DNA from: an uncultured Methanomicrobiales archaeon
GTDB lineage: Archaea; Halobacteriota; Methanomicrobia; Methanomicrobiales; Methanospirillaceae
DNA: 64,000 nucleotides
Assembly (NCBI GenBank): GCA_903832665.1
Contig: CAILCG010000028.1
Span: forward strand, 1 to 64,000
Direction of reading: 5' to 3'
A program made the position numbers and the translations under genes. Shown in pieces: positions 1 to 38,035 of this stretch. Within the stretch, counting starts at the first letter, position 1, and each line of letters starts with the position of its first letter. The notes under the pieces were generated by a model, which was not told the origin of the DNA, made no database searches, and was given only the letters and a program-made list of their open reading frames with translations.

Positions 1-258
1 GATGGTGTTGAACTTGTCCGACAGGCTGCCGACAACCTTTGCATCGGTATCCTGATAGACAATCTTCACCGTGTACCCTTCCTTGGTCTTTTCTACCGGG
101 TCGTGGTTCAGCCCGGCGGTCATATACGCTACACATGCAAATGGGTTGTCGGTGATAACCGACTGGACGATCGTGTTGAACGTCGCAACGTCTGCAATCG
201 GGTCCGCGAGTTCACGGACCGCACTCTTGGTTACATTGCTCTGTACGAAATCTGCCAT
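1..258 (-). CDS. MADF-family protein of unknown function (3' end outside window)
   Basis: Reading leftward from the ATG at 258, the frame is open for 86 codons to the window edge. The protein begins MADFVQSNVTKSAVRE and is clearly paralogous to the complete gene at 36804-37307: by hand alignment about 47 of the first 78 residues are identical, including the blocks PIADV, NPF, PVEK, GYT and IVYQD. No signal peptide or membrane segment is visible. I do not recognise the family. The paralogue's length suggests that roughly half of this gene lies outside the window. It has the same orientation as the small-gene cluster at 3960-6326, but Fic, SDH protease and restriction genes lie between them, so common membership of one system is inference from the second locus. 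Confidence 0.75.
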   Translation of the reverse strand, partial: MADFVQSNVTKSAVRELADPIADVATFNTIVQSVITDNPFACVAYMTAGLNHDPVEKTKEGYTVKIVYQDTDAKVVGSLSDKFNTI

Positions 259-3968: not shown

Positions 3969-4118
3969 ATTTGTGATGTTTTTCCGCTCTACGAGGATCT
4001 GGAAGATTGCATCACCGTGTTTATTGACCAGGGCTTCGATCACGTTCGAGATCAGGTAGAGCGGGATGCCTCCCCTCTTGTCAGTCGTGACTGCCGGATT
4101 CGTGTCTTCATCCGGCAT
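3960..4118 (-). CDS. Small protein, last gene of the locus A cluster
   Basis: A 52-residue protein starting MPDEDTNPAV. Its ATG at 4118 overlaps the end of the preceding gene by 11 bases, typical of translational coupling in this cluster. The C-terminal half is a probable amphipathic helix (IEALVNKHGDAIFQILVERK). I do not recognise it. Its stop overlaps the last bases of the truncated restriction gene on the other strand. It lies at the end of a compact run of genes, so it could be a genuine small subunit or a remnant. Confidence 0.45.
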   Translation of the reverse strand: MPDEDTNPAVTTDKRGGIPLYLISNVIEALVNKHGDAIFQILVERKNITNLR

Positions 4119-4479
4119 AGGCTGCCACCTCCTGGAGAGAATCTGGCAGCACCTCGTAACAATGGATTGAACCGTTCGGTGACACGACCCAGATCTCGCA
4201 GCGCAGGAACACATTGCCCGGATATTTTGTCAGGAACGAACGGAACTGGCAGCACTCGAACCTGCAGAACGATTCAACGTACGGCACGCTCACCGCACCG
4301 TGAGCGATCCGCAATTTCACGCAGAGCGCCTCATAGTTCCCCCGCAATCCTACAAGGTGGAGCGGGATGTAGCGTGTGAGGAATCGGCTGTTCTCCGGCA
4401 GGACCGGCTCAAAGCCCCGGGAGATGAGCAGTTCAGTAGCCCGCTCCTTCGAGGCGTTGAATGATGTCTGTGCGATCAT
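4108..4479 (-). CDS. Locus A paralogue 3: possible degenerate PD-(D/E)XK-fold protein
   Basis: A 123-residue protein, the third of three tandem relatives (also 4476-4892 and 4889-5272). The shared plan is an N-terminal helix (ERATELLISRGFEPV), two or three beta strands (LHLVGLRG, ALCVKLRIAHG), a helix, a strand EIWVVSPNGSIHCYEV, and a final helix start DSLQEV. This order resembles restriction-endonuclease-like folds such as resolvases. The positions expected to hold the catalytic Asp and the E-x-K pair read LHLVG and VKLRI, so the active site appears to be lost. It overlaps its upstream neighbour by four bases. Inference: a non-catalytic structural or DNA-binding relative. A profile search would be needed to establish the fold. 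Confidence 0.6.
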   Translation of the reverse strand: MIAQTSFNASKERATELLISRGFEPVLPENSRFLTRYIPLHLVGLRGNYEALCVKLRIAHGAVSVPYVESFCRFECCQFRSFLTKYPGNVFLRCEIWVVSPNGSIHCYEVLPDSLQEVAAYAG

Positions 4480-4892
4480 GCCTTACCTCCGTTCTGCCCG
4501 GTCTTTTCGTCTGGAATAAGAATTTCCCGGATGCCGTCCCGGGTGATCTCGAACTGCTGGAACCGGTCCGAAGGAATCGAGATCCAGATCTCGAACCGGG
4601 AGCATTTCACTCCCTGCGGTACCTGGTCAAAGAATTTCTTCATGCGCCCTGTCTCGTTATGGCAGAAGACCGCTGCTTCGTCCAGGGACTGCATCGCGTG
4701 AAGGGAAATTTTCAGTTTCACCATCACGGCATCGATGGTCCCGTCTTCCAGTTCCTTGCGGGCTGACAGGTTGAAGAGGATATACCGGGGATTCCGGAAA
4801 CAGTTGCTCACAATCACGGGCTTATATCCGAGCTTCAGTAAGATGGTGCCGGCCTGTTGTTCCAGTATCCGCATCCGGTGGACAGCGGTCAT
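4476..4892 (-). CDS. Locus A paralogue 2: possible degenerate PD-(D/E)XK-fold protein
   Basis: A 138-residue protein of the same plan as its two neighbours: a first helix RMRILEQQAGTILLKLGYK, a strand pair around YILFNLSARK and VMVKLKISLH, a central helix with paired acidic and basic residues, then CSRFEIWISIPSDRFQQFEI and a final helix GIREI. The C-terminal match FEI...DGIREI parallels FEV...DSVREI in the next gene and YRV...WGIGNV in the locus B protein at 35754-36542. ATG/TGA overlaps of four bases on both sides show tight coupling. The function is not known, and no catalytic residues of a nuclease are visible. Confidence 0.6.
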   Translation of the reverse strand: MTAVHRMRILEQQAGTILLKLGYKPVIVSNCFRNPRYILFNLSARKELEDGTIDAVMVKLKISLHAMQSLDEAAVFCHNETGRMKKFFDQVPQGVKCSRFEIWISIPSDRFQQFEITRDGIREILIPDEKTGQNGGKA

Positions 4893-5272
4893 GCAACACC
4901 TCCGGCCTTCCGGGTGACCGGGGTATAGAGCGAGAGTTTGGGGATCTCCCGCACGCTGTCTTTGTGCACTTCAAAACACCGGAAACCGTAGCTCAGGGAA
5001 TAGCACCAGATCTTGGCATGGAGCGCCTGATGCTTGCGAAGCTGCGTGAGGCCCACGTAACATCTCTGTTCAACGGTTTGCACCGAGGAGGACTGGTGAA
5101 AGAGTTTCGTAATCCGGATGAACCGTGTCTCACCCGATGGCCGGGTTGCGACAAGGTGGGCCGGGGGAAGCCGCTTGTTGAATCCGACCGGCAGGACCCG
5201 GACCTTGTACCCGTGAAACTGGAGCAGTTCGCGGGCCCCGTCCTCGATCAGCCTGCTGCGACGGCTGGTCAT
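4889..5272 (-). CDS. Locus A paralogue 1: possible degenerate PD-(D/E)XK-fold protein
   Basis: A 127-residue protein, the first of the three paralogues. It begins MTSRRSRLIEDGARELLQFH, followed by YKVRVLPV, the strand pair AHLVATRP and TRFIRITK, a helix, and IWCYSLSYGFRCFEV ending in DSVREI. The segment TRFIRITK occupies the place of the E-x-K strand in PD-(D/E)XK nucleases, but the acidic residue is absent. The N-terminus is basic. It overlaps both flanking genes by four bases, which places it in one transcript running from about 6326 or 5637 down to 3960. Three tandem diverged copies suggest a hetero-oligomer; this is inference. Confidence 0.6.
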   Translation of the reverse strand: MTSRRSRLIEDGARELLQFHGYKVRVLPVGFNKRLPPAHLVATRPSGETRFIRITKLFHQSSSVQTVEQRCYVGLTQLRKHQALHAKIWCYSLSYGFRCFEVHKDSVREIPKLSLYTPVTRKAGGVA

Positions 5273-5637
5273 GAGGTCGCTCCTTTCTTTGACGGGGAAA
5301 TGATTTCGGGTTCCTTCACATCGGAAGGGACTTCAAAGAGGAGGCAGGATATATCCTCGTCAAGCGCAACCGCGATGAACCGGTCGCGGGGGAGCATGTA
5401 CCGGGTTTTTCCGACGCCGATAATAACGGCACGGCCCGATGGATTGAGATGTGCAATGCCAGATATCAGTGGCATTCCATTGGGGTCCGGTCCTTTTTTC
5501 AGAAGCGGGACCCGGTCGCCCACGAAGATGAGCATCCCCAGTTCTTCGGGGCATATGTAGTACGATTCGCCCCAGATCCGGACATGGACATACCCGTCAC
5601 CTCCGGTCATGACAATCCCGGCGGAGAAATGGCTCAT
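5269..5637 (-). CDS. Unknown beta-rich protein leading the locus A paralogues
   Basis: I chose the ATG at 5637 over the one at 5664 because GGAGGAGA lies about five bases upstream of it. The 122-residue product is rich in short hydrophobic strands (YVHVRIWGESYYICPEE, GMLIFVGDRVPLL, RAVIIGVGKTRYML, ISCLLFEV) and ends in a charged tail. I recognise no family; it could be a small barrel or a PilZ-like fold, but no defining motif is present. It overlaps the first paralogue by four bases, so it is translated with the locus A set. Locus B has no obvious counterpart. Confidence 0.55.
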   Translation of the reverse strand: MSHFSAGIVMTGGDGYVHVRIWGESYYICPEELGMLIFVGDRVPLLKKGPDPNGMPLISGIAHLNPSGRAVIIGVGKTRYMLPRDRFIAVALDEDISCLLFEVPSDVKEPEIISPSKKGATS

Positions 5638-6083: not shown

Positions 6084-6326
6084 CTACTGACGATCACCAA
6101 AATAGGTGAAGAGCGAAAAGATAGGGGCGTGGCTGCTCGTCAGTCTGCACCACTGGTCCTTGTTCATTGCACGCCGGGTTTCGGACGTGTAGTTGTTCTT
6201 CTGGACCGGGTATTTTTCCGGAGCCTCGGGTTCAGGCTGGCCGATCAAAACAAGGAATTTTGTTTTGACGGATTTTGCTGCCGCCTTTATCCGAGCGCTC
6301 GTCGTTTTGAAGAATTCCCAGAGCAT
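6084..6326 (-). CDS. Small protein with conserved HAPxFSLFTxF tail (locus A)
   Basis: An 80-residue protein beginning MLWEFFKTTSARIKAAAK, with a basic helix at the start, a variable Pro/Lys-rich middle and the C-terminus SSHAPIFSLFTYFGDRQ. The protein at 35328-35567 is the same length and ends SGHAPLFSLFTFFKNSQ; 11 of the last 17 residues are identical although the middles hardly align. A strongly conserved C-terminal tail on a variable body suggests a docking or sorting peptide. It heads the locus A cluster, as its relative heads locus B. No known family is recognised. Confidence 0.65.
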   Translation of the reverse strand: MLWEFFKTTSARIKAAAKSVKTKFLVLIGQPEPEAPEKYPVQKNNYTSETRRAMNKDQWCRLTSSHAPIFSLFTYFGDRQ

Positions 6327-6353
6327 TGTAAATATTTTATAAATGCGCGGTTG

Positions 6354-8439: not shown

Positions 8440-8525
8440 TCGATTGTACTAACCATTTTCCAAAGATATACGTTTCGATTTGTTATAGATCCCTCTGAAG
8501 GGCCGTAGTGTATGAATAAACAATT

Positions 8526-9434
8526 TTACCATGCGTAACATTTCCCGTCAGTATGACAAACACCATTCAAACAATACTTACCTGATCCAACGGGACATTC
8601 TTGGTGGCATTTATAGTCCGGTCCGAATACATATCCATCATTGCAACGACGACATCCTCCATTGAGACAAACACTATCACCCGTGCAATAGGAATTTAGT
8701 CCACACGCAAGATGGCATTTATCATCATCACCAAGTACAGAACCATCAGGACATGGATGTTTAGATTTCTCTAAATAATCTTTGAACTCCTTGGGGCTGG
8801 CAAAACTCCAACCTGAATAATACCGGGGATTGTTGACAGGACAGGTATCTGGAAAAGGGCATACAAGATATCCTGCAGTGCATTCTAATGCAATCCACTC
8901 ATTCGGGGAAACTTCCGCTAATACCCAGGCATGAGTAGCATCTTGAATTTTTGAAACATCTTTATCAACGTTCCCCACTTGGATTTTTGCATTTATTTCC
9001 TTAGTTATTACCATATTCCAAACATCGCTCGCCATATCACCACAGACAAACATATCTGGCTTGCTGTAAGTGTGGGTTGCATGATAATCTTCAACAATTT
9101 TTTTCACAGTATTGATATTCTGGTTTTTTGCGCTTTCTATGGGACTAGGAGAAAAAGTGCTTGAACCTGTTGAATTTGAAGATCCCTGGATCAAGAAGAC
9201 ATAACCAAACCACAAAACAACAATTATTGCAAGTACTGTCAATATTGTATCCCAAATTGATTTCTCTTTCACTTCTGATTTTGAATTTGTTTTTGGTATC
9301 GCGGAATGATTTGTTGGTGTTTTTTTATCCTCACGATCTCTTTTTACAATCGAATCGATATGGATACCACATTCGGGACAATAATTTAAGTCATCGGAAA
9401 TCTTTTTTCCGTATTCTGGACAAAATTTTGGCAT
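8526..9434 (-). CDS. Zinc-ribbon, membrane, transglutaminase-like and Cys-rich domain protein
   Basis: The 302-residue protein has an N-terminal zinc ribbon in which the first knuckle reads CPEYG, so one Cys is replaced by Tyr, while the second (CPECG) is intact. A single membrane segment spans about residues 60-83. Outside it lies a transglutaminase-like core with the triad Cys131 (FVCGDMA), His168 (ATHAWV) and Glu184 (IALECT). The last 80 residues contain about a dozen Cys in EGF-like spacing (CLNGGCRRCNDGYVFG). Predicted topology: zinc ribbon inside, catalytic and Cys-rich parts outside. This suggests cell-surface protein processing or cross-linking. First gene of the AT-rich cassette; its base composition contrasts with the neighbouring core genes. 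Confidence 0.7.
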   Translation of the reverse strand: MPKFCPEYGKKISDDLNYCPECGIHIDSIVKRDREDKKTPTNHSAIPKTNSKSEVKEKSIWDTILTVLAIIVVLWFGYVFLIQGSSNSTGSSTFSPSPIESAKNQNINTVKKIVEDYHATHTYSKPDMFVCGDMASDVWNMVITKEINAKIQVGNVDKDVSKIQDATHAWVLAEVSPNEWIALECTAGYLVCPFPDTCPVNNPRYYSGWSFASPKEFKDYLEKSKHPCPDGSVLGDDDKCHLACGLNSYCTGDSVCLNGGCRRCNDGYVFGPDYKCHQECPVGSGKYCLNGVCHTDGKCYAW

Positions 9435-9582
9435 TTTTTTCTCAAATTTTAATTTAAAAGGAGATGGGATAAGTATTCCTTTTTAATTTTTAGAACAATT
9501 TATTGCAGTTCTCACTAAAATAAAAACCAAACCGGGTTTATAGCGGTTCTCTTTTGTTTCAAAAAATTGGTGTGCCATCAGC

Positions 9583-9805
9583 AGTATGCCGGAACGTGCC
9601 GGAACGTGCCGGAACCAAGCTGGAATGATCTCAAAGATTCTGCCGCCATTTTCAAAAAAGACTCAATCCCATGCACAGGACCTATGACGGGTTCATTCGT
9701 AGTATGCCGGAACGTGCCGGAACGGTCTCAAAGATTTTTCCACAATTTTCTAAAAATGGTAAATTCCTTGCATAGGACCTATGAATGACTCCTTCGTATT
9801 ATGCC
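9583..9805. repeat. Direct repeats with CGTGCCGGAA subrepeats
   Basis: A unit starting AGTATGCCGGAACGTGCCGG at 9583 recurs at 9701 (period 118). The copies share GATCTCAAAGATT/GGTCTCAAAGATT, an A/T tract, and GGACCTATGA near their ends, and a third partial copy begins near 9798 (TATTATGCC). Inside the units, CGTGCCGGAA is itself repeated two to three times. The short frame that runs through this stretch is only a by-product of the repeats. Confidence 0.75.
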
Positions 9806-9903
9806 ACTATGGTAAGCCAAGAGAAAAGAAAAGAGATTATCGGATAATCAGGCAAAATCTCTAAAACAAAAATGATTTTGCAGAAACCCCGGTGAAAAAG
9901 GAA

Positions 9904-10194
9904 TCAATAATATCCGTATTTCTTATGAGCCTGCTCGATGGGCAGGATCTCCTGGACAATCACCAGTTTTTCCTCTTTATCGATCTCGTAAAACGCGGTG
10001 TAACTGTGGGAAATATGAAGCCGGTAGATAATAACCCCGCCCCGTAAAACCAGTTTTTCTTTATCCCCCTGGCTTCCCGGGAACGGATCTTCTTCAAGCC
10101 GCTTCAGGGCAGTTTTGATTATCCTTCGTGACTTCTCCGGCAGGCGATTGATCTCATCAGATAATTCATGCCAGAGCACAAGAGAAAAGGTCAA
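9904..10194 (-). CDS. RelE/ParE-family toxin
   Basis: The 96-residue protein has the RelE/ParE plan: helices with LPEKSRRIIKTALKRLEEDP, then strands with KLVLRGGVIIYRLHISHSYTAFYEID and an EEKLVIVQEI C-terminal strand before a basic end. The Arg in YRLHI and the Tyr pair occupy positions used by RelE-type ribosome-dependent mRNA interferases, but the YafQ His triad is not evident, so the target (mRNA or gyrase) is open. The start overlaps the antitoxin stop by four bases. Both genes are next to the integrase, a common place for plasmid or island stabilising modules. Confidence 0.75.
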   Translation of the reverse strand: MTFSLVLWHELSDEINRLPEKSRRIIKTALKRLEEDPFPGSQGDKEKLVLRGGVIIYRLHISHSYTAFYEIDKEEKLVIVQEILPIEQAHKKYGYY

Positions 10195-10391
10195 TCCTTA
10201 ATCTCCGAGAGTGAAACGAAACCCTCTTTCTTTCGGCTGCTCCACTTCCTGACATCTTCCTCTAACCGGCGCTTCTTCCGGTCCTCGATCATCTCTGCCA
10301 GAAGATCCGTATAGGTCTGGCCTGCCGATCGCATCTCGGCAAGATCCTTCCATACCGGTTCGGTTACCGGTATTCGCTTTACCGCTGACAT
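10191..10391 (-). CDS. Antitoxin of the RelE-type pair
   Basis: A 66-residue protein, MSAVKRIPVTEPVWKDLAEM..., resembling the short archaeal VapB/RelB-like antitoxins that begin with a beta strand (KRIPVTE) forming a ribbon-helix-helix dimer, followed by helices (TYTDLLAEMIEDRKKRRLEE) and a charged tail that would neutralise the toxin. It is directly upstream of the toxin with a four-base overlap. The usual autoregulation by such antitoxins is expected, but I see no strong palindrome in the 120 bases before the start. Confidence 0.7.
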   Translation of the reverse strand: MSAVKRIPVTEPVWKDLAEMRSAGQTYTDLLAEMIEDRKKRRLEEDVRKWSSRKKEGFVSLSEIKD

Positions 10392-10511
10392 GATCGTATT
10401 GTAAGCATTGTAAGTATGAATACTTTTGGCGGATTTTTTTTAATCGCTCGCACGCCGACAATCTCAACATTTTTGTCGATTTTGGTGGGAGGAAAAGATT
10501 CTGCAAAAAAA

Positions 10512-11741
10512 TCAGAGTTCCCCTTTCCGCTTCATTTCCTCAATCTTTTCATCAATAAGTTGCCGCAGGATATCCGGGTTGTTATGCACACTCTGCTGAA
10601 TGCCGTCATCGGTATCGATTACAACATCTGTCAAGCGCTGGCCGCAGGAAACACAATAGTTCGAGACCGGAGGATTGATCTTTTTACAGTGCGGGCACTG
10701 ACAGGGCTCCAGCCGCGACGCATTGCTGTTGGTATCCGTAGCGCTGATGCCGTACGACTTGAGCATCGCTGAGTCAATGTCCTGCCCGGCGAGATGGGCG
10801 TAAGTCCGGAACATATCAGTGCTGATGTTGCCCCACATCATGAGCTTGATCACACTCTCGGGCACGCCTTCCTTGATGAGATGCGTGATCCGGCTGTGCC
10901 GGAAGACATGAGGCGTGATGTGTTTCCGGATGCCAGCTGTCTTCGCGATGCACTTGAGCCGCTTGTTGATGGTCGCATGGATGAGCGGCTTACCGCGTTC
11001 GTTTATGAAGACCAGTGCATCACCGCTCGGGTCCGGCTTGTAGCAGGCCCGCCACTGCGCCAGGTATTCCCGGGACATGATGAGCCGGACATACCGGGGC
11101 ATGTTGGTCTTGAAGTTCACGTTCGCGATGACACCGTATTTATCGAACGTGAGATCTCCCCAGGTCATAGTCCCGATCTCGCCAATACGGAATCCTCCTT
11201 CATAGAGACTCATGACGATGGCCCGGTCAATCGTCCGGGTGCACGCCTTCATCATCGCGGTGATTTCATCGGGAGTCAACAGGTCAGCGGCCACTTTGGT
11301 CATAGTGTCCTTGGGCGGGGTCCGGAGTTTGTGGATTTTGCTTTCGGTGAGTTGGGAATATTTGTTATCAATCATCCAGAGGTAAAACTGTTTGAGAATG
11401 GCGATGAAATCGCTGATGGTGTTCTGTTTGAATGGCGTCTCACGGCGGCTCTTTGCATTTCTCAACTCAGGGATTGCAGCGTAGAGATCGCCGATGGGAT
11501 TGTCTGCAAACGGACCGATGAACCTGCGCCAGGTTATGAGCGTGAAGGTGAGTTTGTTTGCCCGACCGGCGCTGATGTTCTTGCAGGACCGGAGTTCTGC
11601 AATGAATTCCCGGATCTGAGCGGCATCAATCGTCGTGATGGTGAAATTCTGAAGTGCGGTCTTGATGGCGTTTTCTGCCAAATCGGTCCTGATGTTGTGA
11701 AAAGAGCTTTCAGTAATTAACTGAGCGACTGGGTAAGTCAT
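10512..11741 (-). CDS. Tyrosine recombinase/integrase with C-terminal zinc ribbon
   Basis: The 409-residue protein has a SAM-like core-binding region in the first ~150 residues and a catalytic domain with the family residues: Arg in GGFRIGEIG (~190), HVFRHSR (HxxR, ~283), a Trp in MMWGN where many members have His, and the nucleophile Tyr in MFRTYAHL (~316). A zinc ribbon (CPHCKK...CVSCG) follows near residues 350-372, a common addition in archaeal integrases. The start ATG at 11741 lies 64 bases from the 3' end of tRNA-Leu, the expected arrangement for a tRNA-targeting integrase whose element lies to the left. I could not find a second copy of the tRNA 3' end in the window. Confidence 0.85.
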   Translation of the reverse strand: MTYPVAQLITESSFHNIRTDLAENAIKTALQNFTITTIDAAQIREFIAELRSCKNISAGRANKLTFTLITWRRFIGPFADNPIGDLYAAIPELRNAKSRRETPFKQNTISDFIAILKQFYLWMIDNKYSQLTESKIHKLRTPPKDTMTKVAADLLTPDEITAMMKACTRTIDRAIVMSLYEGGFRIGEIGTMTWGDLTFDKYGVIANVNFKTNMPRYVRLIMSREYLAQWRACYKPDPSGDALVFINERGKPLIHATINKRLKCIAKTAGIRKHITPHVFRHSRITHLIKEGVPESVIKLMMWGNISTDMFRTYAHLAGQDIDSAMLKSYGISATDTNSNASRLEPCQCPHCKKINPPVSNYCVSCGQRLTDVVIDTDDGIQQSVHNNPDILRQLIDEKIEEMKRKGEL

Positions 11742-11804
11742 ATACGAGTGTCTGATTGAAGCGGTTTAAAAAGAGAACTGAACGATTCAAACTTCGCGTC
11801 CAGA

Positions 11805-11889
11805 TGCGAGGGGAGGGATTTGAACCCGCGAACTTCTGCAAGAACAGATCTTGAGTCTGTCACCGTTGACCAGGCTTGGTTACCCTCGC
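11805..11889 (-). tRNA. tRNA-Leu (anticodon CAA)
   Basis: An 85-base cloverleaf reads on the minus strand from 11889. It has the acceptor arms GCGAGGG and CCCTCGC, an anticodon stem ACAGA/TCTGT enclosing CTCAAGA (anticodon CAA), a long variable arm typical of tRNA-Leu, and the T arm GCGGGTTCAAATCCC. The discriminator base is A and no CCA is encoded. A TATA-like CCTATATCTTA lies upstream at about 11903-11913. The integrase gene begins just beyond the tRNA 3' end. Confidence 0.92.
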
Positions 11890-11913
11890 TTTTTAGAATA
11901 AGATATAGGAATA

Positions 11914-12087
11914 GTACATGGATTTTGGATTAAAAGAATCTTATCCAAAAAACATCATCCGATCCGTTATCTGTCGCCGTTGAACAAATTTTTTTATTCC
12001 TGCCGTGGCCGGGAGGCCGTTGCCGAAGGGAAGAATTCACCGGATCCGGGAGGAAACCGCAATATTTTCGTTATTCAAACCACCCTT
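11914..12087. other. Intergenic stretch, no gene seen
   Basis: The stretch between the tRNA promoter and the end of the CDF gene has no supported reading frame and no clear repeat. Confidence 0.5.
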
Positions 12088-12983
12088 TCATGATAATTCC
12101 GCGTGCCGGTCGACGGGCTCCACGATCGCAGAGTTCTCACATTCCTCGTTCTCGACTTCCAGCGTGGAATGGTGGATATGGTACTTTTCGAGCCGTTTTC
12201 TGATCTCCTGCTTCATCTCCGCGATCTGTGTCACATCCGTTTCGCAGGAATAAATATGGGCATCAAGCACGTGAATATCGGAACTGAGGCTCCAGATATG
12301 GATGTGGTGGACCCCGTCAACTCCCGTCACTGAACTCATATCCGCAATGACCGCATCGAAATTCACGGAACGCGGGGTGAACTGGAGAAGGATCGCAATC
12401 GTCTCGCGCAGGATACCGGCAGCCGAGACGATAATGAGGAGGGCGATAAATCCCGAAAGGAGAGGATCGACTATGACCTGGCCGGTAAACCCGATCCAGA
12501 TGGCTGCAACAATCACGGCAACCGATGATACTGCATCGCCGATGACATGCAGAAAAGCACTCTTTACATTCAGGTTATGACTCCCGTGCAGGAGGAACGC
12601 CACCGCAATATTGGCAATGAGACCGGTCACCGCCACGACCCCCATGAGACCGCTCTGGATCGGTGCGGGGTTCAGCAACCGCTGGTACGCTTCCCACAGG
12701 ATGATGGCGCTGACTGCCATCAGCAGCAGGGAATTGATAAAGGCGGCAAAGATCTCCGCACGTAACCGTATGTCCGTTCCTTATAAGGGAGCCTGGCTGC
12801 AAGCGTGATAGCCCCCAGCGAGAGGAGGAGTGCCAGCACGTCGCTGAACATATGCCCGGCATCGCTGACCAGCGCAAGGGACCCCGAGACCAGGCCGCCA
12901 ACGAGTTCAATAATGAAAAAAAGGAACGTGATGACGAGCGCAAGTTGCAATGGTTTCTTAAAATCCCGGGGGGTGTGAACCAT
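12088..12983 (-). pseudogene. CDF-family cation efflux transporter, frameshifted
   Basis: The start at 12983 (MVHTPRDFKKPLQLAL) leads through two membrane segments with the zinc-site motif SDAGHMFSD. The reading frame slips near 12761: the run expected to read YGYRAEIFAAFINSLLLMAV is split between two frames, and restoring one base there joins them. The second part has the remaining membrane segments, the second metal motif HVIGDAVSSV and a cytoplasmic ferredoxin-like domain with HIHIWSLSS and His-rich strands. The restored protein is about 298 residues, normal for CDF (CzcD-like) Zn/Co/Cd antiporters. Whether the missing base is real or an assembly error cannot be told here; the rest of the gene shows no decay. 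Confidence 0.8.
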
Positions 12984-13121
12984 ACTGCTGCCTGCATGGA
13001 TCTTGGCGTGGTATTAAAAAAAGGTGCATATCCAGGACATCAGGTTCCGGTTACCTGCCGAAGCCCGGGTGATGGCCGCGAGGGCCGCTGTTGGTAGGGG
13101 GAAACAGATCGAGACCCTGCA

Positions 13122-16100
13122 TCACATGAAATCGGCGAGACCCAGTTGCTGCTCCTTCGCATCGCCGAACGTGGACTGGATCGCCAGGTCAATCACTTCG
13201 ACCCGCTGCTTGGTGTACTCCGAGACCTTGTACTTCCGGCAGATCTCCCGGGACATCTCGAGATATTTCTTCACCGAGCCTTCGTGCACCGTCGCGATGA
13301 TGTTGCCATTGCACGGGTGCTTGCCCTTGAACTTCGTGCACTTGCCCGAAAGCGGCATCCTGCGGTAGCTCGTGTTGCACTTCGTGCACCGGCACTTCTG
13401 CTTCGAGAACGCCGACAGGTTGCCCATAAGGTCCCGGATGAAGTGCGTATTGAGCACCCGCTCTGCCACATCGTTGGCATCGACCGCACGGATCTTCTCT
13501 GCCAGCACCAGTTCGGCCTCGAGCTTGTCGGTCATCGACTTGAGCTGGGTGTACATCGATTCGATCGGACCCGCCGATATATCCGAAGTGTCATGGGTGA
13601 ACTGGAACCCTTCGAGCTGGGCGGGGGTGCCGATCCGGTTCTCGACCCGGTCGATGAGCTTGACGATAGTCTTGGGTTCGATATAGTTGAGAGCCCCCAG
13701 GTACACCTCAATCGGGTAGCCTTCGCAGACATCGACGTTCAGGGCTTCCTTGTCGATCTGGGCAGGATCGATCCGGCTCGTCAGCACGAGGGGGGCATCC
13801 ATGGACCCGCCCCGGTTCTGGGGCAGGAACGAGCGTGAGAAGTTGATCAGCCCGTCCAGCAGCAGCATGATACAGTCCTCATCACCATCACACTGGCCGG
13901 TGAAGATCCCGTTTGCCACCAGCGTATGATCGTCAGCAATCGTCAGGCAGTAAACTCGTTCCTCGGGCGCCGGCACGATATCGATGGCGCGGATGCGGTC
14001 CGAGATCACGTTCATGCCCTCCAGCACTGGAACCGCGTCCCCGACTTTAAGTTCGAGGGCCCGTATTTTCCGGAGGTACGCGGTATCCCAGACGAGCATC
14101 GCGTGATCGGGCGTGACCGCAATATCCTTACCCATCGCCGTCGTGATGCGGAGCAGGGTTGCCGGGGAGCGGTGAATGGAGACGGTGGTGACCTTCCGGA
14201 TGTGCATCGCGCCACTCGTATCAATGGTGCGGGTGTAATACGGGCGGGCCGGGTCCGAGTAGTAGGTGCCGAGCTGATCGAGACCCGGGCGGCTGACATC
14301 GAAGTTCTCCAGCACGAACTTCCGGATCGGGTGCCGGGTCCACGACCTGCCATCGTACACCTCGATCATGGTATCGCCAAAAAAGCAGTTGCGCCGTTTC
14401 GCGGCATGGAAGAACGGGTGGGCATACCCTACGTTCGCCCGGGTGAACCCGATGATACGGGCGAGCACCCCGGCGCTCGTGTGCGGGGCAAGACCGATGA
14501 CAAGATGGCCCACGAGATCGTCGGGCTTCTGGATATTGTAAAACGGCGGCAGGCCATAGACTTTCACCAGCAGGTCATCCATGAACCGGGCCACGCTCAC
14601 CATGTATTCGGCGCAGGAGTCCGAGACCAGGAGATCCTGGGCATGCAGCTCCACCACCTGTTTGCCATTCTGGAGATCGTACTCGTGCGTATCTTTCGTG
14701 TATCCCAGCGAACGGAGTTTCTCGACCGGCACCCGCACTTCATCGGGGCGGATGTGGGTGAGGGGCAGGTCGATCATGTCAAACCGCGTGGTCCCGTCTT
14801 TAAAGACCCAGATGTTCTGGATCCCCCGCAGGACTCCCTTCTCCATCGCCTCGACGGATTTCTCCTTCGAGATCATGCCCTTGACCCCCTTGACGAGCGC
14901 GACCGCATCGGTCTTCATGCCGAGACGGGTCATCACTTTGGCATATTCACTCTTCACATCCACTTTGATTCGCTGGGAGCAGGTGGCCTGACCGTCACAT
15001 GCGGGACACCGGGGCAGATTCGTCTCCCTTCCGCACTTGATGCAGGTGAAGACCGCGACCGTGTGCGCACCGCACTTGTCGCACCGGTTGAGATACGTGA
15101 TCTCCCCGCACTGGGAGCAGCGCCGGCGGCCGACTTCGATCTCGATGATCCCGCTCTCCTTCTGGATGCCGATCTCGGTATCATTCTGGTCCATCTGCTC
15201 GATATGGGTCGAAGCGGACTGGAACGAACGCCGGGCACCCCCGGTGTCGCCGAGGGGGAAGAGGACATGCGGGGGAGGATTCATCTTCCGGGGCTTGGAT
15301 TTCCCAGGCCTGCCCATCCGTCCGCCGATACGGGTGCCTGAACGCGATCGCATCTTAAACCCGGAAAGGTGCTGCACGCGATCGAGTTGATTGGTATCCG
15401 GGGCATTCTCCCAGACCCCGCGTTTCTTCAGGGTCTCATCCAGCCCGAGGCACGCGATGAAGGCCCGGTAGATCGGGATCTTCACGCACCCGTCCCGCAC
15501 AATATGGGATACGAGCAGGGTCTCGATGATATCCTTGGTCACCGGTTCCAGCGGAATGACCAGGTGCTCGTCAACAATCTTCCCGCCCCCGGCAACCGCG
15601 TCCGCGAGGAGGGTGATCTGGTCCATGGTGATATCGTCCCAGAACCACGTGTACGCAGGATGGAGATACCCGCCTGCCCTGGCAAATGCGATCGCCTCTC
15701 CCTCATCCGTCGGGGTTTTTGTACCGGGTTCGCTGTCCAGGAGCCACCATTCGTCGCAGTAGCCGGAGGGCACGAGCGGGTGGTTGTTCTCCAGGAATTC
15801 CCCGTACGATATAAGGATCTCGCCCACATCGAGGATCCTCTCGATCACCGGCTGAAGGCGCTTTGCCGTGGCTTCATCATCAATCCGGAGCACGTCGCCA
15901 CTGGTCAGGCGTACGGTCGGACCTTCGATCGAATCCACCGGCACCACCCCGCAGGCCTTGCCCGGCCGCTCGGTCTTCATCTGGGTCCCGGTTGCAAGGA
16001 ACTCGCCCAGCACATACAGAGTTGCCGGGTGAAAACCGGCCGTGGCAAACCCGGTGTTGCGCGAACGGCCGTACCGGAGCCGGAAACCGCCTTTGCGCAT

Positions 16101-23286: not shown

Positions 23287-23775
23287 CTGTTCAGGAACTG
23301 CCGGAATAAATTTTCAATCAAAGTCTGATTTATTTTTTTTAAGTAAAGTCTGGTTGAAAAAAAACATTCAAAGTCTGCTTGAAATATTTCAATCAAGATC
23401 CGATTTGAAAATTTTAAGCAGAGTGTGGTTGAAAAAATAAAATCAAAGTATGGCCGGAATTTTTCAGGCAAAGTCTGATTGATCCGGAAATGATTTTCAA
23501 TCGCAATCGCGTACCCGATTGAAAAATTTTGAGCAGAGTCTGGTTGATCTGCTGATGGATTTCAATCAGGGGCTGGGGGGTTGATTGAAAATTTTTGTGC
23601 ATGGTCTGATTTATTTTTTTTAGGCACAGTGTGGTTGAAAAATAAAATTCGAAGTGTGATTGAAATTTTTTGAGCAGAGTCTGATTATTTTTTTTCAATC
23701 AAAGTCTGGTTAAAAAATAAAAATCAGACTTTGATTGAAATTTTTTGGGCAAGGTCTGGTTGAAAAAATGGATTG
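23287..23775. repeat. Degenerate 25-bp tandem repeat array (left)
   Basis: About 17 units with the consensus AAAGTCTGRTTG, followed by a 13-base A/T-rich spacer usually ending ATC, AGC or GGC; the period is mostly 25 bases and slips in a few units. Examples start around 23320, 23345, 23460, 23700 and 23730. The array fills the space between the atpI stop and the hsdR stop. The same unit recurs at 37785-38035. Units vary at several positions, so this is an old, diverging array. Confidence 0.85.
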
Positions 23776-30593: not shown

Positions 30594-31874
30594 TCAATTA
30601 TCCACTTGAATTTCCCCAGACATTAACTTTGGCAGCAGCGCATCACGAATTTGGGCGAGCGTGCTGGACTGTTTTTCATTTATTGCTCGCATTTTATCGA
30701 GAGGGGCAACCATTTTCAAAAATGCCTCGGCAATATCTGCTGTTGGAAAAACAAATGATGCGGATGCAAGAACCTGAGCACTCGCGTTTGGTTGAGCTGA
30801 TCCTCCAATAGCATTGCTTACAAAATCGAAATATGATTCAGTTCTCATAAATTCCCCGACAACTCGTGCTATGCCGGGAACTTTAAATTGAAAACGCACT
30901 AAATATGATGGAAAAACTGAATTCGATGCATCAATGATGAAAATATTCTCTCCTGTAGATGCTCCGGTTCTGGCGACAAAAATATCTCCAATATTTATTC
31001 GGTATTTTTCAAAATCATCTGGAGATACTGCACAATAAGGTACGTGATCCCAATTTATTTTCCCACCCTGGATATCAGTTATTCGTAAAAATTTCGGTCC
31101 AATTTCTTCTTGGGAGGCACTTTGAGTTAATCCGTACTGAATCACTGAGGTTTCGGTTCAGATCTCTTTTAATTCCCACCCTCTCGGCACCTCCCGCCCG
31201 TCAACCTCCTCAAACCCATCCGGAAACAGCGCCGCAATCTCCAGCGGCAGCCCAGTGTCGCGCTTCTCGGCCTTCGCCCGCACCGGATCGAAGTCCACGA
31301 ACCAACTCTTGAAGATCGCCCGTGCCATCGCTTCGAGCGTCTCGTTCATCTGGCGGTTGAGCTCGATCTTGTCATCGAGAGAGATGAAAATACGAGATAT
31401 CGCCAGTTGTTCATTCAATGACGGGGTGGGAATTAGAATCGACTTCAAACGAGTAGTATCCAGCTTCCCTGCACCAATCCCAGTAAATTCAACCAAGTTA
31501 TGAATTTTTTCAGAATTAGCTAAAAGTGAATAAAATAAGAAGAAAGGATCAAGCGTAGGTTTTGCTACGAGTGCCTTTACATCTTGATTGAAGGTTACAG
31601 GTTTTGTGGTTATGCATATTGGAACATATTGATGCAGAGTACTTCCACGAACAAGAATGAGTATTGAATTTGTATCGACAATTTTATTCTTACTTTGAAC
31701 TGCTGAAAGGGTTATTTTATCTTCAGAATCACTAACCCTCGAATGAGACATGGATTTTGCACTAATCCAAGGGATAGTGCCATCCCAGAAAGAGGGATTA
31801 TTTTTAGATGGGGTTCCACCAGAATACCAATCAGCAATTACACCCAAATGTTGTTCTGGCCATTCACTGCTCAT
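30594..31874 (-). pseudogene. hsdS: Type I restriction specificity subunit, split by in-frame TGA
   Basis: The first half (MSSEWPEQHLGVIADWYSGG ... GWELKEI) is a target recognition domain followed by the conserved central repeat SLDDKIELNRQMNETLEAMA. A TGA at 31158-31160 interrupts, and the same frame continues with a second target recognition domain (GPKFLRITDIQGGKI...) and the C-terminal repeat PLDKMRAINEKQSSTLAQIRDALLPKL. The complete protein would be 426 residues, normal for HsdS. Each half has one recognition domain with one conserved helix, so two separate half-subunits could in principle assemble, as seen for truncated HsdS in other systems; a start for the second half would be near the GTG at 31145. 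Confidence 0.85.
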
Positions 31875-32118
31875 AGCCTAATCCTTTGAGATTTTGAGTG
31901 ATTTCATCGGTGAGCCGCTCCGATTCCCGGAACTGCTCCCCCAGTTTCGCCGCCAGCCGCCCCATCTTCTCCTCAAACGGCTCGCCATCATCCACGATAT
32001 CCTCAGCGCCCACATACCGCCCGGGCGTCAGGAGAGGATTGTCAGGAAACGATGCCCCACACAAGGCGCCACAAGTGTCCCACGGCTTGTGGGACGAATG
32101 CACTGACAGGCCCGTCAC
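31864..32118 (-). pseudogene. Duplicated hsdM 3' fragment
   Basis: Residues 30-84 of this frame, beginning at [12 protein letters not shown], copy the C-terminus of hsdM ([12 protein letters not shown] at 33485 and onward). The DNA at 31890-32030 and 33355-33480 is nearly identical over the segment encoding [20 protein letters not shown]. The N-terminal 28 residues are unrelated. The fragment overlaps the hsdS start and the YhcG stop. It is most simply the tail of an original hsdM, left attached to hsdS when the YhcG-bearing DNA came in with or created a second tail. Confidence 0.8.
32077..32095. terminator. Small inverted repeat at the YhcG 3' end
   Basis: GTCCCAC and GTGGGAC are exact complements around a five-base loop, just beyond the YhcG stop. 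No T-run follows in the direction of transcription, so termination is not certain; it may mark the recombination junction. Confidence 0.35.
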
Positions 32119-33224
32119 GATTCCCTCTCCTCTTTCCCCGCAAATCTCTCCCTCGCCGCCTCAACTGCTGCTTTCAGTCTCCTTTCCAGAAGATCCCGGG
32201 GTGGGAGTTCCGTGAGGTACTCAGCAACGCGGATACCGCTCTGCTCCAGTTCGAGGAGTTCTACGTGCTCTGTCGATTTCCCTGCACAGAGGATCAGACC
32301 GATAGGGCTCTCCTCGCCGGGGGGACGGTCGTACTTGTCCAGCCATCGGAGATACAGCTCCATCTGCCCCTTGTAGGCAGCCTGGAATCTTTCGAGTTTC
32401 AGATCGATTGCAACAAGGCGGTGCAGCCTGCGATGATAGAAGAGCAGGTCGATGTAATAATCCGTAGTATCGACCGTGATGCGTTTCTGCCGGGCTACGA
32501 AAGAAAAATCAGTGCCGAGTTCGAGAATGAACCGCTCCAGATCCCGAAGGATCGCGGATTCGAGATCCCGCTCCGAGAATGTGTCCTCAAGTTTGAGAAA
32601 ATTAAGGAAATACGGGTCGCGGAAGACCAGATCGGGAGTTATACGATCGGCTTCCGTTAGTTTCGCAAGCTCCTGCCGGATAAGTTTTTCCGGTTTTTTC
32701 GAGATGGCAGTCCGCTCAAAGAGCATCCCGTTGATTTTGTCCCGGAGTGTCCGGACATTCCATCGCTCAATCCGGCACAGGGCGGCATAATATTCACGGG
32801 CAAGAGGATCATCGACCTTGATCAGTTCGACAAAATGGGACCAGCTCAATTGTTGCGACAATGTCTGGACAATCTGTTCATCGGGATACGCGGTGGCGAA
32901 CTGTATCATCCGGAAGAGTTCTGTCCGTTCAAATCCCTGCCCATACTCTTGGGCCAATTGTTGCGACAGCGTCGCGACTATTTTTTTCCCATACGGAGCC
33001 CGCTCTTTCCCAAGGATATCACTGCGGATTCGTGATCCGATGCTCCAGTTCCGCAGCAGGAGCGTAACATTGACACCAATTGCTACACGGGTAATGGCGG
33101 TCTCAATCAGATCCTGGATATCACCAAGGAGAACAGGGAACGATGCCGGAAGATCGTTCTCCTCCGGTATTTTTACCGGGGTACACTTACTCTTCGCGGG
33201 GACTTGTTCTCCGTTCTTACTCAT
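32115..33224 (-). CDS. YhcG/DUF1016-family PD-(D/E)XK nuclease
   Basis: I set the start at the Met of MSKNGEQVPAKS (33224); an upstream Met at 33299 would add 25 unlikely residues. The 369-residue protein has the DUF1016 N-terminal helical domain (WSIGSRI..., LAQEYGQGFERTELFRMIQFA). Its C-terminal nuclease domain has TDYYIDLLFYHRRLHRLVAI followed by DLKLERF, i.e. catalytic D and D-x-K, and ends with an ERRLKAA helix. YhcG proteins occur in restriction and defence islands; the precise target is not established. It lies between hsdM and the duplicated hsdM tail, so it was inserted into the type I operon. Confidence 0.85.
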   Translation of the reverse strand: MSKNGEQVPAKSKCTPVKIPEENDLPASFPVLLGDIQDLIETAITRVAIGVNVTLLLRNWSIGSRIRSDILGKERAPYGKKIVATLSQQLAQEYGQGFERTELFRMIQFATAYPDEQIVQTLSQQLSWSHFVELIKVDDPLAREYYAALCRIERWNVRTLRDKINGMLFERTAISKKPEKLIRQELAKLTEADRITPDLVFRDPYFLNFLKLEDTFSERDLESAILRDLERFILELGTDFSFVARQKRITVDTTDYYIDLLFYHRRLHRLVAIDLKLERFQAAYKGQMELYLRWLDKYDRPPGEESPIGLILCAGKSTEHVELLELEQSGIRVAEYLTELPPRDLLERRLKAAVEAARERFAGKEERES

Positions 33225-33311
33225 ATGCGGGACTCCACTCCGGATTGTGGGGACAGTGTACCCACAATGTGAGATTATGCAAAATAAAAAACCCGCCAAG
33301 ATTGTTCTTAC

Positions 33312-34916
33312 TCATAACCGGTACCCCAATCCCTTCAGATTCCCGGCAATCTCCCCTTCCAACCGATCCGACTCAGCGAACTGCTCCCCCAGCTTCGCCG
33401 CCAGCCGCCCCATCTTCTCCTCAAACGGCTCGCCATCATCCACGACATCCTCGGCGCCCACGTACCGCCCGGGTGTCAGCACGAAACCGTTCTTCCGGAT
33501 CTCCTCAACAGAAGCACTCTTGCAGAACCCCGGCACATCCGCATATTCCCCGGCTTCCTTCTCACCCCGCCATGCATGGTAAGTCGAAGATATCCGGGCA
33601 ATGTCTTCCTCAGTGAGATCCCGGTGCACCCGGTCGATCAGTGTCCCCATCTTCCGGGCATCGATGAACAGCGTCTCGCCGCGACGGTTCCGGAACCTGT
33701 GGTTCTTCTTGTCCCGGGTCACGAACCAGAGGCAGACCGGGATCTGGGTGGAGTAGAAGAGCTGGCCTGGCATGGCGATCATGCAGTCCACAAGATCGGC
33801 CTCAATGATATTCTTCCGTATTTCCCCCTCACCGGACTGGTTCGAAGACATGGACCCGTTCGCGAGCACGAATCCCGCTATGCCGGTCGGTGCGAGGTGG
33901 TAGATGAAGTGCTGGACCCAGGCAAAGTTCGCGTTGCCAGCCGGGGGGAGGCCATACTTCCAGCGGGCATCCTCTTTGAGCCGCTCGCCGCCCCAGTCAC
34001 TCATATTGAACGGCGGGTTGGCGAGGATGAAATCCGCTTTTAAGTCGGGGTGCAGATCGCGGTGGAAGCTGTCCGCGTGTTCGGGGCCGAGATTGCCCTC
34101 GATCCCCCGGATGGCGAGGTTCATCTCGGCGAGTTTCCAGGTCGTGGGGTTGGACTCCTACCCGTAGACCGCGATATCCGCAACATTGCCCCCGTGCGCC
34201 TCGACAAATTTCTCGCTCTGGACAAACATCCCGCCCGAACCGCAGCAGGGGTCGTACACCCGGCCCTTGTATGGCTCGATCATCTCAACAAGCGTCTTTA
34301 CTACTGACCGTGGCGTATAGAACTGCCCGCCCTTCTTCCCTTCAGCGCTTGCAAACTGCGAGAGGAAATACTCGTACACGCGGCCGAGGATGTCCTTCGA
34401 CCGGTGCTCCTTCTCACCCAACCCGAGGGTGCCGATAAGATCGATCAGCTCACCCAGCTGGGTTTTATCCAGCGCCGGGCGGGCATAATCCTTGGGCAGC
34501 ACACCCTTGAGGGAGGGGTTGTCCCGCTCTACTGCCACCATCGCGTCATCGATCAGCTTTCCGATCGTGGGTTGCTTCGCGTTTGCCTGGAGAGTTGACC
34601 AGCGGGCTTCCTTGGGTACCCAGAAAACATTGGCCGCCAGGTATTCGTCCCGGTCCTCCAGGGTCAGGTATCGGGCCTGCGGTTCGGCAACGTACCACTC
34701 GCTCTTTGGATCGCTCAGCTCGGTCTCAAGGTTTACGTGCCGCTCCTCAAATGCATCGGATATGTACTTCAGGAAAATAAGACTGAGAACTACGTGCTTG
34801 TATTCCGCTGCATCCATGTGGCCACGGAGCTTGTCGGCAGCAGCCCAGAGCGTTGCCTCGAACCCGAGGTTTGCCCCATTGCTGGTCTTCTGTTTCTTTG
34901 TGCTTTGCCGGGCCAT
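33312..34916 (-). pseudogene. hsdM: Type I restriction methylase M subunit, interrupted by TAG
   Basis: The frame starts at 34916 with the helical HsdM N-domain. The methylase has [12 protein letters not shown] and motif [15 protein letters not shown]. At 34158-34160 a TAG stands where the family has Gln (IYG-Q-ESNPTTW); the same frame continues with [19 protein letters not shown], the catalytic [12 protein letters not shown] (N6-adenine type) and the C-terminal [10 protein letters not shown] region to 33312. A CAG to TAG change would explain it. The whole gene would encode 534 residues. Without readthrough, motif I and NPPF are on separate polypeptides. It is the upstream gene of the restriction operon. 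Confidence 0.88.
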
Positions 34917-35327: not shown

Positions 35328-35567
35328 ATGATCAGCGAACTCATCGGACCACTGAAGAACCTGGCAAAGGAGGCCTTTGCAACGCTCAGGGAAACGGGCG
35401 CTGCAGTGATCCGCTGGATCACCTCCCCCAGTTCAGTTGCAGCCTATGAAAAGATGGTCCCTGTAGCAGCCGATGGAAACGTACTGGACATGGGGAAGCG
35501 CTACCGGAAAACGAGCGGCCACGCCCCACTCTTCTCGCTCTTCACCTTCTTTAAAAATAGTCAGTAG
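35328..35567 (+). CDS. Small protein with conserved HAPxFSLFTxF tail (locus B)
   Basis: A 79-residue protein MISELIGPLKNLAKEAFATL..., with an amphipathic N-terminal helix and a C-terminus SGHAPLFSLFTFFKNSQ. It is paralogous to 6084-6326, with 11 of 17 tail residues identical and little similarity elsewhere. It leads locus B as its relative leads locus A. No membrane segment is clear, although the first helix could lie on a membrane. A tail so much better conserved than the body may be a docking or encapsulation signal; that is inference. Confidence 0.65.
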   Translation: MISELIGPLKNLAKEAFATLRETGAAVIRWITSPSSVAAYEKMVPVAADGNVLDMGKRYRKTSGHAPLFSLFTFFKNSQ

Positions 35568-35753
35568 ACGTCGGTCCGGACTTCCGGAAATTTCATCGTG
35601 GTTTTGATCCTCAAGGTTACCTGCCGATTCGCGAGCAGGCGGCCACCAGCAGGAACACGAGCCCCGGTTTTCCCTGGATTGACGTTTTTGGATTAAAGTG
35701 AACGAGCCCCAGCGCCCGAAGAAATCGTTGTTGAACAAACCCCCCCAGCAGAT

Positions 35754-36542
35754 GTGAAAAAGATGAACGGATTCGCAGAAGAAAACGGATTTACAGAAAA
35801 GACCCAGGAACAGCAGGAGAACACCCCCATCGCAGAGAAGACGGATGCAGCGGTAACCGCAGCTCCCGCGGAGACAATCGAACAGGAGGAAACCCCGGTC
35901 GGAACTGACGATGCCGGCCGGAGCGGGACGGGGCCCAGCACAGCGGAACCAAAAGAAGCTCCACGCCGCAGCTCAGTAAAGGGAAAGAAGCGCCGGAAGG
36001 GGCACCGGCACAAGAAGAACGCCGGCGGGGTGGCAGCCAAGGGCAAGAGAAACGGCCAGCACGTCCCCCGGGGGAGCTGCGAGATCGCGGGCATGCTGGA
36101 AGAGGAGGGGTATATCGTCGGGGTAATCCCTGATCCCACTTCACCCTTCGATCTCATCGGCTGGAGCAACGCGGGATCGATCCTCGTCCGGGTGACGCGG
36201 CCCATAGAGCTCGTTGCAAACGCCCGCAATGTCCGGGAGCAGTACGAGGATGTTATCCGGGAGATGGAGCCGTATTACCGGACGGAAGCCGACAATATCC
36301 AGTTCATGGTCCTCTCCCGGGAGCACGGGCTGCTCCGGTACCGGGTCTATGACTGGGGCATCGGTAACGTAAAGACCATGCAGAAAATTCTGAAAATCCC
36401 GCGGGAATTCCCCTCTGATAAACAAACAGACACCCCCCTGCCTGCTAATCAACGAGCGCGCAACTTTCCCTGCCCGGTTGGGCCAGCAGGGCTTGCATTC
36501 GCCCCCGATGTCACCCCCCTTCCCGCGGCTATACCAGAGTAA
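35754..36542 (+). CDS. Basic-linker protein with possible degenerate PD-(D/E)XK domain (locus B)
   Basis: I list the GTG at 35754; the ATG at 35763 is an equally good start, and coding-like composition (APEEIVVEQTPP) extends further upstream without a start. Residues 1-75 are acidic and disordered. Residues 76-105 are strongly basic (KGKKRRKGHRHKKN), suggesting nucleic acid contact. Residues ~105-225 have the same plan as the three locus A proteins: helix CEIAGMLEEEGYIVGVI, strands FDLIGWSN and SILVRVTRP, helix VREQYEDVIREM, strand FMVLSREHGLLRYRV, helix GIGNV. The Asp of FDLIG is kept, while the E-x-K strand reads LVRV. Last 40 residues are Pro-rich. Confidence 0.65.
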   Translation: MKKMNGFAEENGFTEKTQEQQENTPIAEKTDAAVTAAPAETIEQEETPVGTDDAGRSGTGPSTAEPKEAPRRSSVKGKKRRKGHRHKKNAGGVAAKGKRNGQHVPRGSCEIAGMLEEEGYIVGVIPDPTSPFDLIGWSNAGSILVRVTRPIELVANARNVREQYEDVIREMEPYYRTEADNIQFMVLSREHGLLRYRVYDWGIGNVKTMQKILKIPREFPSDKQTDTPLPANQRARNFPCPVGPAGLAFAPDVTPLPAAIPE

Positions 36543-36803
36543 ATCCTATAGTGGTATGTCAAACGGGCGCCCCGCAAGACACCAGAGAACAGAAGTCCGA
36601 ACACACACGGGACACGGTGAGACCCACCGTGGGTCCCGCCAAATCCAGGCAAAAACCAGTATGGCACGGACCGATAAGAGCCCTCGTCTGCTCGCACCCC
36701 GGGATCCAGAGGATCCGGGTGCGAAACGCGGAGGTCGGCTCGCCACACCGGCCCGGCCAGGGAGGAACCAGGACAAGGAAAAAACACAAAGGAGTGATAG
36801 ATT
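36543..36803. other. Leader of the locus B MADF gene
   Basis: Rich in G and C, no supported gene. The ribosome site AAGGAGTGATAG lies just before the ATG at 36804. A second promoter for the MADF gene may lie here, but no clear TATA element is seen. Confidence 0.45.
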
Positions 36804-37307
36804 ATGGCAGATTTCAACATCAGCAACACAACCAAGAGCGCGGTTCGCAAGATCGTCGAGCCGATCGCCGACGTGACGGCCTTTGACAACATCGTCCAGG
36901 GCGTCATCACGAACAACCCCTTCCAGTGCGTTTTCTACAACGCATCGGGAGTGAGCCACGCACCCGTGGAGAAGAGCAAGCAGGGCTACACGGCACGGAT
37001 CGTATACCAGGACGCGGAGGCAAATACCGTCGCGGTAATTACCATCCGGGCCTCCACCATCGCGGCCTTCACGAGCGCCGCCAACCAGATCAAGGACGAC
37101 GCCCAGCTGAAAACGACCTTCGGGGCGACAAACTACCGGGATCTCGACAACGAGAAATACGCAACAACCCTCCGGTGCCACGATGTAAACGGGGAGATCT
37201 ACTCCGTCAACTTCAGCCGGGACCAGGTGACCCTCACCTCGTACACGGACGAAGCCATCCGGAGCCGGGTCGAGACCTGGGCAGACACTGTTGCAGCACT
37301 GGGATGA
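36804..37307 (+). CDS. MADF-family protein of unknown function (complete copy)
   Basis: A 167-residue protein starting MADFNISNTTKSAVRKIV, with blocks PIADV, NPFQCVFYN, PVEKSKQGYTARIVYQD, ANTVAVITIRAST, YATTLRCHDVNGEIYSVNFS and a final helix RSRVETWADTVAALG. It appears soluble, with a mixture of strands and helices. Codons are strongly biased to C-ending forms, and the ribosome site is good, which suggests high expression. Its relative at 1-258 shares about 60% of the first 78 residues. The stop overlaps the ATG of the 47-residue membrane peptide gene. I recognise no family; a structural or shell-like role would fit but is not demonstrated. Confidence 0.75.
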   Translation: MADFNISNTTKSAVRKIVEPIADVTAFDNIVQGVITNNPFQCVFYNASGVSHAPVEKSKQGYTARIVYQDAEANTVAVITIRASTIAAFTSAANQIKDDAQLKTTFGATNYRDLDNEKYATTLRCHDVNGEIYSVNFSRDQVTLTSYTDEAIRSRVETWADTVAALG

Positions 37308-37447
37308 TGATGATGATGGACAACGAACTCATCATCACGGGAGCCTTCCTCGGGGCGGGACTGCTCGCCTACGTGGTAATCCCCGGACTCCTCGTAATGT
37401 GGGACCGGGTGCTGGACCACATGGAATCGGGTGGAAACGGCAAGTAG
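37304..37447 (+). CDS. 47-residue single-helix membrane protein
   Basis: The ATG at 37304 overlaps the TGA of the MADF gene, and five ATG codons follow in a row, so the exact start is uncertain (47 to 43 residues). The peptide is one membrane helix (LIITGAFLGAGLLAYVVIPGLLVMW) between an acidic N-terminus and the tail RVLDHMESGGNGK. The coupling implies that it acts with the MADF protein, perhaps anchoring it at the membrane. A strong terminator follows 18 bases later. Confidence 0.7.
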   Translation: MMMMMDNELIITGAFLGAGLLAYVVIPGLLVMWDRVLDHMESGGNGK

Positions 37448-37464
37448 CGCGATATGAACAAACG

Positions 37465-37501
37465 GGGCCGGGGAGGGTTCCCCGGTCCTAACTTTTTTTT
37501 T
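37465..37501 (+). terminator. Terminator hairpin after locus B
   Basis: A ten-base-pair stem (37465-37474 with 37479-37488, one G-T pair) with a four-base loop is followed by TAAC and a run of nine T. Very GC-rich stem, T-run immediately after: a textbook intrinsic terminator closing the MADF/membrane-peptide transcript. Confidence 0.85.
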
Positions 37502-37784: not shown

Positions 37785-38035
37785 TTTTCAATCGAAGTCC
37801 GGATAATTTTTTTTAAATCATGGTTCGAACGAAATTTTTTGATCAGAGTCCGGCAATTTTTTTTCAATCAAAGTCTGGTTGAAAAAATAAAATTAAACTT
37901 TGATTGAAAAATTTTCGGCAAGGTTTGATTGAAAAGTAAAATTCAGACTTTGATTAAAATTTTTCAGGCAAAGTCTGGTTAAAAAAATAAAACCAAGGCC
38001 CGGTAAAAATTTTTCAAGCAAGGAGCATCCGGTTT
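37785..38035. repeat. Degenerate 25-bp tandem repeat array (right)
   Basis: About ten units of the same 25-base repeat as at 23287-23775 (AAAGTCTGGTTG plus an A/T-rich spacer ending in GATC, AATC or AGGC). The unit AAAGTCTGGTTGAAAAAATA at about 37877 matches units in the left array. The two arrays enclose the restriction island and locus B. A single isolated unit, CAAAGTCCGGTCA, occurs near 40150. Confidence 0.85.

Follow-up and report, generated by a model that had tools for sequence, protein, structure and literature searches.

MADF and its small membrane partner are shown here to form a conserved module of integrated elements that occur throughout Methanomicrobiales, an order of important methane producers for which, to our knowledge, few viruses are known, Blf4 among them. 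The window, that is, the whole stretch of 64,000 nucleotides analyzed from an uncultured member of this order, contains the focal copy. A profile search of 392 genomes of the phylum identified MADF in 78, all of which belonged to Methanomicrobiales (78 of the 83 genomes of the order sampled); the profile had no match in the 309 genomes of the phylum outside the order, nor in five genomes within it. A search with a single sequence yielded 80 of the 392 genomes, including two weak matches outside the order that were rejected, as the profile failed to recover them. MADF was present at eight places in its own genome and in 54 of 60 relatives, and an operon specific to one locus was rejected because the family is multicopy.

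The full elements shared the order tRNA, tyrosine integrase, W, a protein of 113 aa, PrimPol-helicase, variable defence cargo, Orc1/Cdc6, and a membrane protein with MADF, which occupied the element end away from the integrase. The genomes of families f2, f4, and f5 and some of f1 (e.g., L205) contained the block W, 113 aa, PrimPol, cargo, Orc1/Cdc6, protein E, and MADF, parts of which were missing from single loci. The Orc1/Cdc6 proteins of the elements matched Pfam Cdc6_lid (E 1e-12 and 1e-8), ArdC matched ArdcN (E 2e-28), and the integrase of L197 matched phrog_1 (E 3e-25), whereas the primase motifs and most of the names given to the cargo (restriction, SIR2-like, DUF262, CRISPR, Dnd-like) were read by eye from the sequences. 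Twenty-four genomes were searched whole, namely the own genome and 23 selected for few contigs. PrimPol was found in 19 of these, at 52 merged loci, a count that leaves out weak short pieces at the end of the list. Of the 50 loci that entered a placement test, 29 were within 20 kb of MADF, compared with a mean of 3.2 and a maximum of 9 in 1000 random placements, for which G029:C2 was taken as 2.0 Mb (true length, 1.98 Mb). The other 21 loci were more than 20 kb from MADF, and five of the 24 genomes carried four to seven MADF copies with PrimPol absent. The assignment of the MADF family to integrative elements is well supported.

Comparison of related loci provided evidence of mobility. L197 contained a tRNA-Ser gene at 15120-15205 with the integrase alongside, and its similarity to the relatives L210, L211, and L213 stopped at 15120, 15117, and 15098, respectively. 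None of these relatives carried MADF, E, PrimPol, or integrase, with L211 extending over just 2.5 kb. A block of 7.35 kb in L201 (G043; 6445-13795) was missing in L212 (G038), where the flanks were 91-94% identical and 1.7 kb of different DNA replaced the block, so that L212 is not a clean empty site. The element block varies by presence and absence between relatives in one genus. In a search for att direct repeats in 12 elements, in which the tRNA ends were also tried, nine had no repeat of 14 nt or more; L203 and L209 contained 14-mers of chance size, and the longer repeats of L204 were not accepted as att. Among the loci compared, an integrase of the L197 type occurred in only four and in the window, within a left element (positions 1-11889) that was devoid of PrimPol and had the order tRNA-Leu, integrase, P0-like, 113-like, X-like genes, W, other genes, and truncated MADF:

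1..258, minus strand: second MADF gene, 5' part, cut by the contig edge
3960..4118, minus strand: W homologue (E 1e-8)
4108..5272, minus strand: three X-like genes (by eye)
5269..5637, minus strand: gene of the 113-aa family (E 7e-8)
6084..6326, minus strand: P0-like gene (E 1.4e-4)
10512..11681, minus strand: tyrosine integrase (E 2.8e-114 to the L197 integrase)
11805..11889, minus strand: tRNA-Leu(CAA), probable integration site

The left end of the window follows the L197-like plan of tRNA, integrase, and element genes. A Doc/Fic-like gene (by eye) was also observed within the left element, at 461-844. The pairing of an integrase with a tRNA target applies to L197 and the left element, not to the focal cassette.

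Type I restriction genes adjoin the focal locus (35328-37501), which is a reduced cassette and not an intact element, because PrimPol had no match anywhere in the window. The cassette and its flanks consisted of the following features:

30594..34916, minus strand: type I restriction-modification genes adjacent to the cassette, named by eye
35328..35567, plus strand: gene P0, 79 aa, with a C-terminus common to the second type-A locus of the own genome
35763..36542, plus strand: gene X, 259 aa, Hjc/PD-(D/E)XK-like via one weak relative
36557..36581, plus strand: leader/promoter motif TGTCAAACGGGCGCCCCGCAAGACA, present at 28 of 65 copies
36789..36794, plus strand: Shine-Dalgarno sequence AAGGAG
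36804..37307, plus strand: MADF gene, 167 aa, an ORF of the order-restricted family
37304..37447, plus strand: type A membrane peptide ORF, 47 aa from the first ATG; likely start 37316, giving 43 aa
37464..37501, plus strand: terminator hairpin and T9

The initial annotation had described MADF and a 47-residue membrane peptide as a highly expressed, self-contained unit. The ATGA overlap (37304) and the ribosome site AAGGAG on which it relied are both in the sequence, as are five in-frame ATG codons at the peptide start (37304, 37307, 37310, 37313, and 37316), the first of which overlaps the MADF stop. The count of 47 residues holds from this first ATG; however, the true start is probably the fifth ATG because the relatives retain only the part from MDNEL onward, where they begin with MDNEL, MENE, or METE. 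The ATG run was thus rejected as a conserved feature and represents a local tri-nucleotide repeat. The strong terminator was borne out, with a computed hairpin of 11 pairs (37464-37489) followed by T9 and an MFE of -22.6 kcal/mol; since a generic terminator scan yielded 1.6 such sites per shuffle, its strength is the notable point, not its presence. High expression, proposed from C-ending codons among other features, was supported by codon adaptation to a reference set of atp and mtr genes, in which the focal MADF ranked 2 among 130 own-genome genes, a second own-genome copy ranked 3, and two other own copies ranked 23 and 27. On the other hand, a self-contained unit was not supported: the upstream P0-X genes recur at a second own-genome locus, type-B loci add two downstream genes, and the family resides in integrated elements.

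The motif TGTC-AAA-GGGCGCCCC-GACA upstream of the focal MADF (36557-36581) preceded 28 of the 65 distinct MADF copies (two of which end at a contig edge) versus 0.025 per shuffled set, the pattern being derived from the same sequences. The stretch around it (36553-36600) folds at -10.1 kcal/mol. Inverted repeats of the TTTGATTGAAAA type were clustered in AT-rich intergenic DNA at 37785-37935 and 23311-23741 of the window (nine matches vs. 0.49 expected), and similar ones were found 3' of L009.

The order P0, X, MADF, and peptide A was shared by two type-A loci of the own genome (the window and L169) in different surroundings. An HsdM-like gene adjoined P0 in L169, and the type I restriction-modification genes at 30594..34916 are likely to be cargo. 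A homologue of gene X in L014 matched Hjc at E=0.006, below the Hjc cut-off. Type-B loci had the order W, X, MADF, peptide B, ORF3, and ORF4. ORF4 (~194 aa) represents a multi-pass membrane protein family 3' of type-B cassettes (L051, L163, L164, L167, L168, L170, and L172-L174), and a relative also adjoined MADF in L040. In Methanocorpusculum (L102, L108, L116, L117, and L186), a 166-aa protein preceded MADF and perhaps replaces W/PrimPol; a Zn-ribbon-like gene was present in L186. The adjacency of MADF copies to restriction, Dnd-like, SIR2-like, and CRISPR genes (by eye) would fit a defence or superinfection-exclusion pair, with MADF as the sensor and the small membrane protein as the effector. 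The type-B ORF3 points in the same direction through an Ig-like sandwich model and one noise-level row for the Pycsar AGS-C domain (Z 6.1, rmsd 3.9, 107 aligned), but the Ig-like fold was given no weight because the model confidence was low (pLDDT 64). However, PADLOC recognized no families among the 10 proteins tested, including MADF, X, W, ORF3, and ORF4; MADF is fixed in the element backbone, whereas defence genes are variable cargo; and MADF persists where the partner is not adjacent. A defence pair is considered unlikely.

Small membrane partners adjoin most MADF copies. The coupling of a soluble protein with a tiny membrane partner, as initially proposed for the focal pair, is a conserved arrangement that extends well past this locus. 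The partners differ between families, and their membrane segments were assigned by hydropathy alone. A type A or B peptide was located within 500 nt at 46 of the 65 distinct copies, a type C peptide at L076, L086, and L091, and decayed peptide relics at L009 and L036. In Methanocorpusculum, the 163-aa MADF was followed by a type D peptide and the 171-aa MADF by an NDRWLD-type peptide. Families f2, f4, and f5 mostly lacked a downstream peptide and instead contained the divergent protein E (~80 aa); peptides A-D are therefore not essential. Across the 24 genomes, MADF was within 1 kb of peptide B in 18/18 places, of peptide A in 19/26 (all on the same strand), and of protein E in 30/36 (28 of these 30 on the opposite strand). 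Tandem or decaying MADF/peptide copies at G017:C1:2428931-2434446, G020:C1:2343649-2346136, and G029:C2:1552683-1559221 suggest local duplication and loss.

By eye, protein E resembles a coiled coil with a terminal hydrophobic segment, and MADF was located near an Orc1/Cdc6-like gene in L176, L177, L180, L195, L197, L201, and others. Both observations are compatible with membrane-tethered replicon maintenance, in which MADF and its partner would act with Orc1/Cdc6 and PrimPol to anchor or partition the element DNA. Methanocorpusculum genomes, however, keep MADF and a partner without any PrimPol match, and a DNA-binding signature was not found; such a role is considered improbable.

Searches of Pfam, PHROGs, and NCBIfam with MADF gave nothing above chance, and neither the PDB sequences nor PADLOC contained a match. 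MADF was rejected as a known virus or plasmid gene because the IMG/VR, phage, and plasmid collections had no match other than one chance-level plasmid row (E 0.4). Twenty-four members aligned over 167 columns with no internal gaps, indicating a constant length. Methanocorpusculum-like genomes encoded 163-aa and 171-aa forms, and the 163-aa copies differed in upstream DNA. After the exclusion of pairs with dS outside 0.02-2, the median dN/dS was 0.074 for the 163-aa copies (45/45 pairs), 0.208 for type A (91/91 pairs), 0.201 for type B (55/55 pairs), and 0.245 for the 171-aa form (53/66 pairs). Many MADF copies, the focal one among them, lack PrimPol yet retain intact and conserved genes; many are solitary, evolve under purifying selection, and show the codon usage of highly expressed genes. 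This codon usage, the dN/dS of 0.07 among Methanocorpusculum copies, and the presence of MADF in 78/83 genomes of the order could reflect a host structural protein of Methanomicrobiales that mobile elements captured repeatedly. Nevertheless, apart from an ATP-synthase operon near four orthologous loci, MADF had no conserved chromosomal neighbor outside the cassettes, and near relatives differ in whether they carry the block; we regard a host protein as very improbable.

The AlphaFold2 model of MADF (pLDDT 91.3, pTM 0.82) predicted a compact alpha/beta domain with a disordered N-terminus, in which MxDF is conserved. Foldseek of this model against PDB and BFVD yielded nothing at E below 0.001, and VIA structure rows peaked at Z 7.1 (78 residues, rmsd 2.5), a level typical of models without a clear match. 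A structure search for phage or shell proteins, as the initial annotation had recommended, revealed neither a phage or shell protein nor an enzyme at a level distinct from noise; no known family rose above noise among the fold-search rows, and no coat-protein fold matched the model. C42 and C125 were rejected as catalytic cysteines, being invariant in the 24 members but lost in the Methanocorpusculum forms.

Taken as a whole, these data are best explained by MADF acting as a membrane-associated coat or scaffold protein that serves the integrated element, a reading that we consider evenly balanced between being right and wrong. It draws on the codon usage, constant length, conserved flexible arm, membrane partner, and lack of any other coat-like gene; no hallmark of a known coat protein or packaging enzyme was recognized in the elements. 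MADF would be made in bulk and self-assemble into a coat or scaffold, which the small partner would hold to the membrane; recruitment to the membrane would be plausible. The assembly may tether the replicon, or it may package or protect the DNA of the element inside a particle or vesicle, and solo copies may persist because their product is supplied in trans or retained by the host. More tentatively, and with a rather small probability, an element family resembling viruses or vesicles could extend through the whole methanogen order and spread defence islands, with MADF as its missing structural protein and with hosts keeping several solo copies that are highly expressed. MADF offers a simple marker for finding PrimPol-type elements across the order, and its link connects integrated elements to the movement of defence genes.

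Among known systems, the TBP, helix-grip, and triphosphate tunnel folds gave the best structural rows for MADF, at noise level (Z 5-7); no match to a whole domain reached a Foldseek E below 0.001. Tunnel enzymes are characterized by EXEXK-type residues, which are absent from the invariant columns of MADF. Protein E shares its layout with two phage families, phrog_1103, listed in PHROGs with unknown function and reached by one protein E (best E 7e-6), and phrog_1193 "hemolysin" (E 0.026), both with weak similarity; peptides A-D lack this likeness, and MADF has no phage relative. In a limited literature search, the pair of MADF and a membrane peptide was not found in print. The closest counterparts are the small integrated arCOG07809 PrimPol elements noted by Makarova et al. 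(2014; PMC4158269), which were proposed as a novel integrated satellite virus without an apparent capsid gene and for which MADF provides a testable gene product. Both groups share a large PrimPol-helicase-HTH-Zn protein, an integrase in some members, and a small size, and the arCOG07809 hosts include Methanosphaerula palustris; the PrimPol described here was equated with arCOG07809 by description and host alone. The sections of that paper on arCOG07809 mention no MADF-like protein, membrane partner, defence cargo, order-wide spread, or solo copies.
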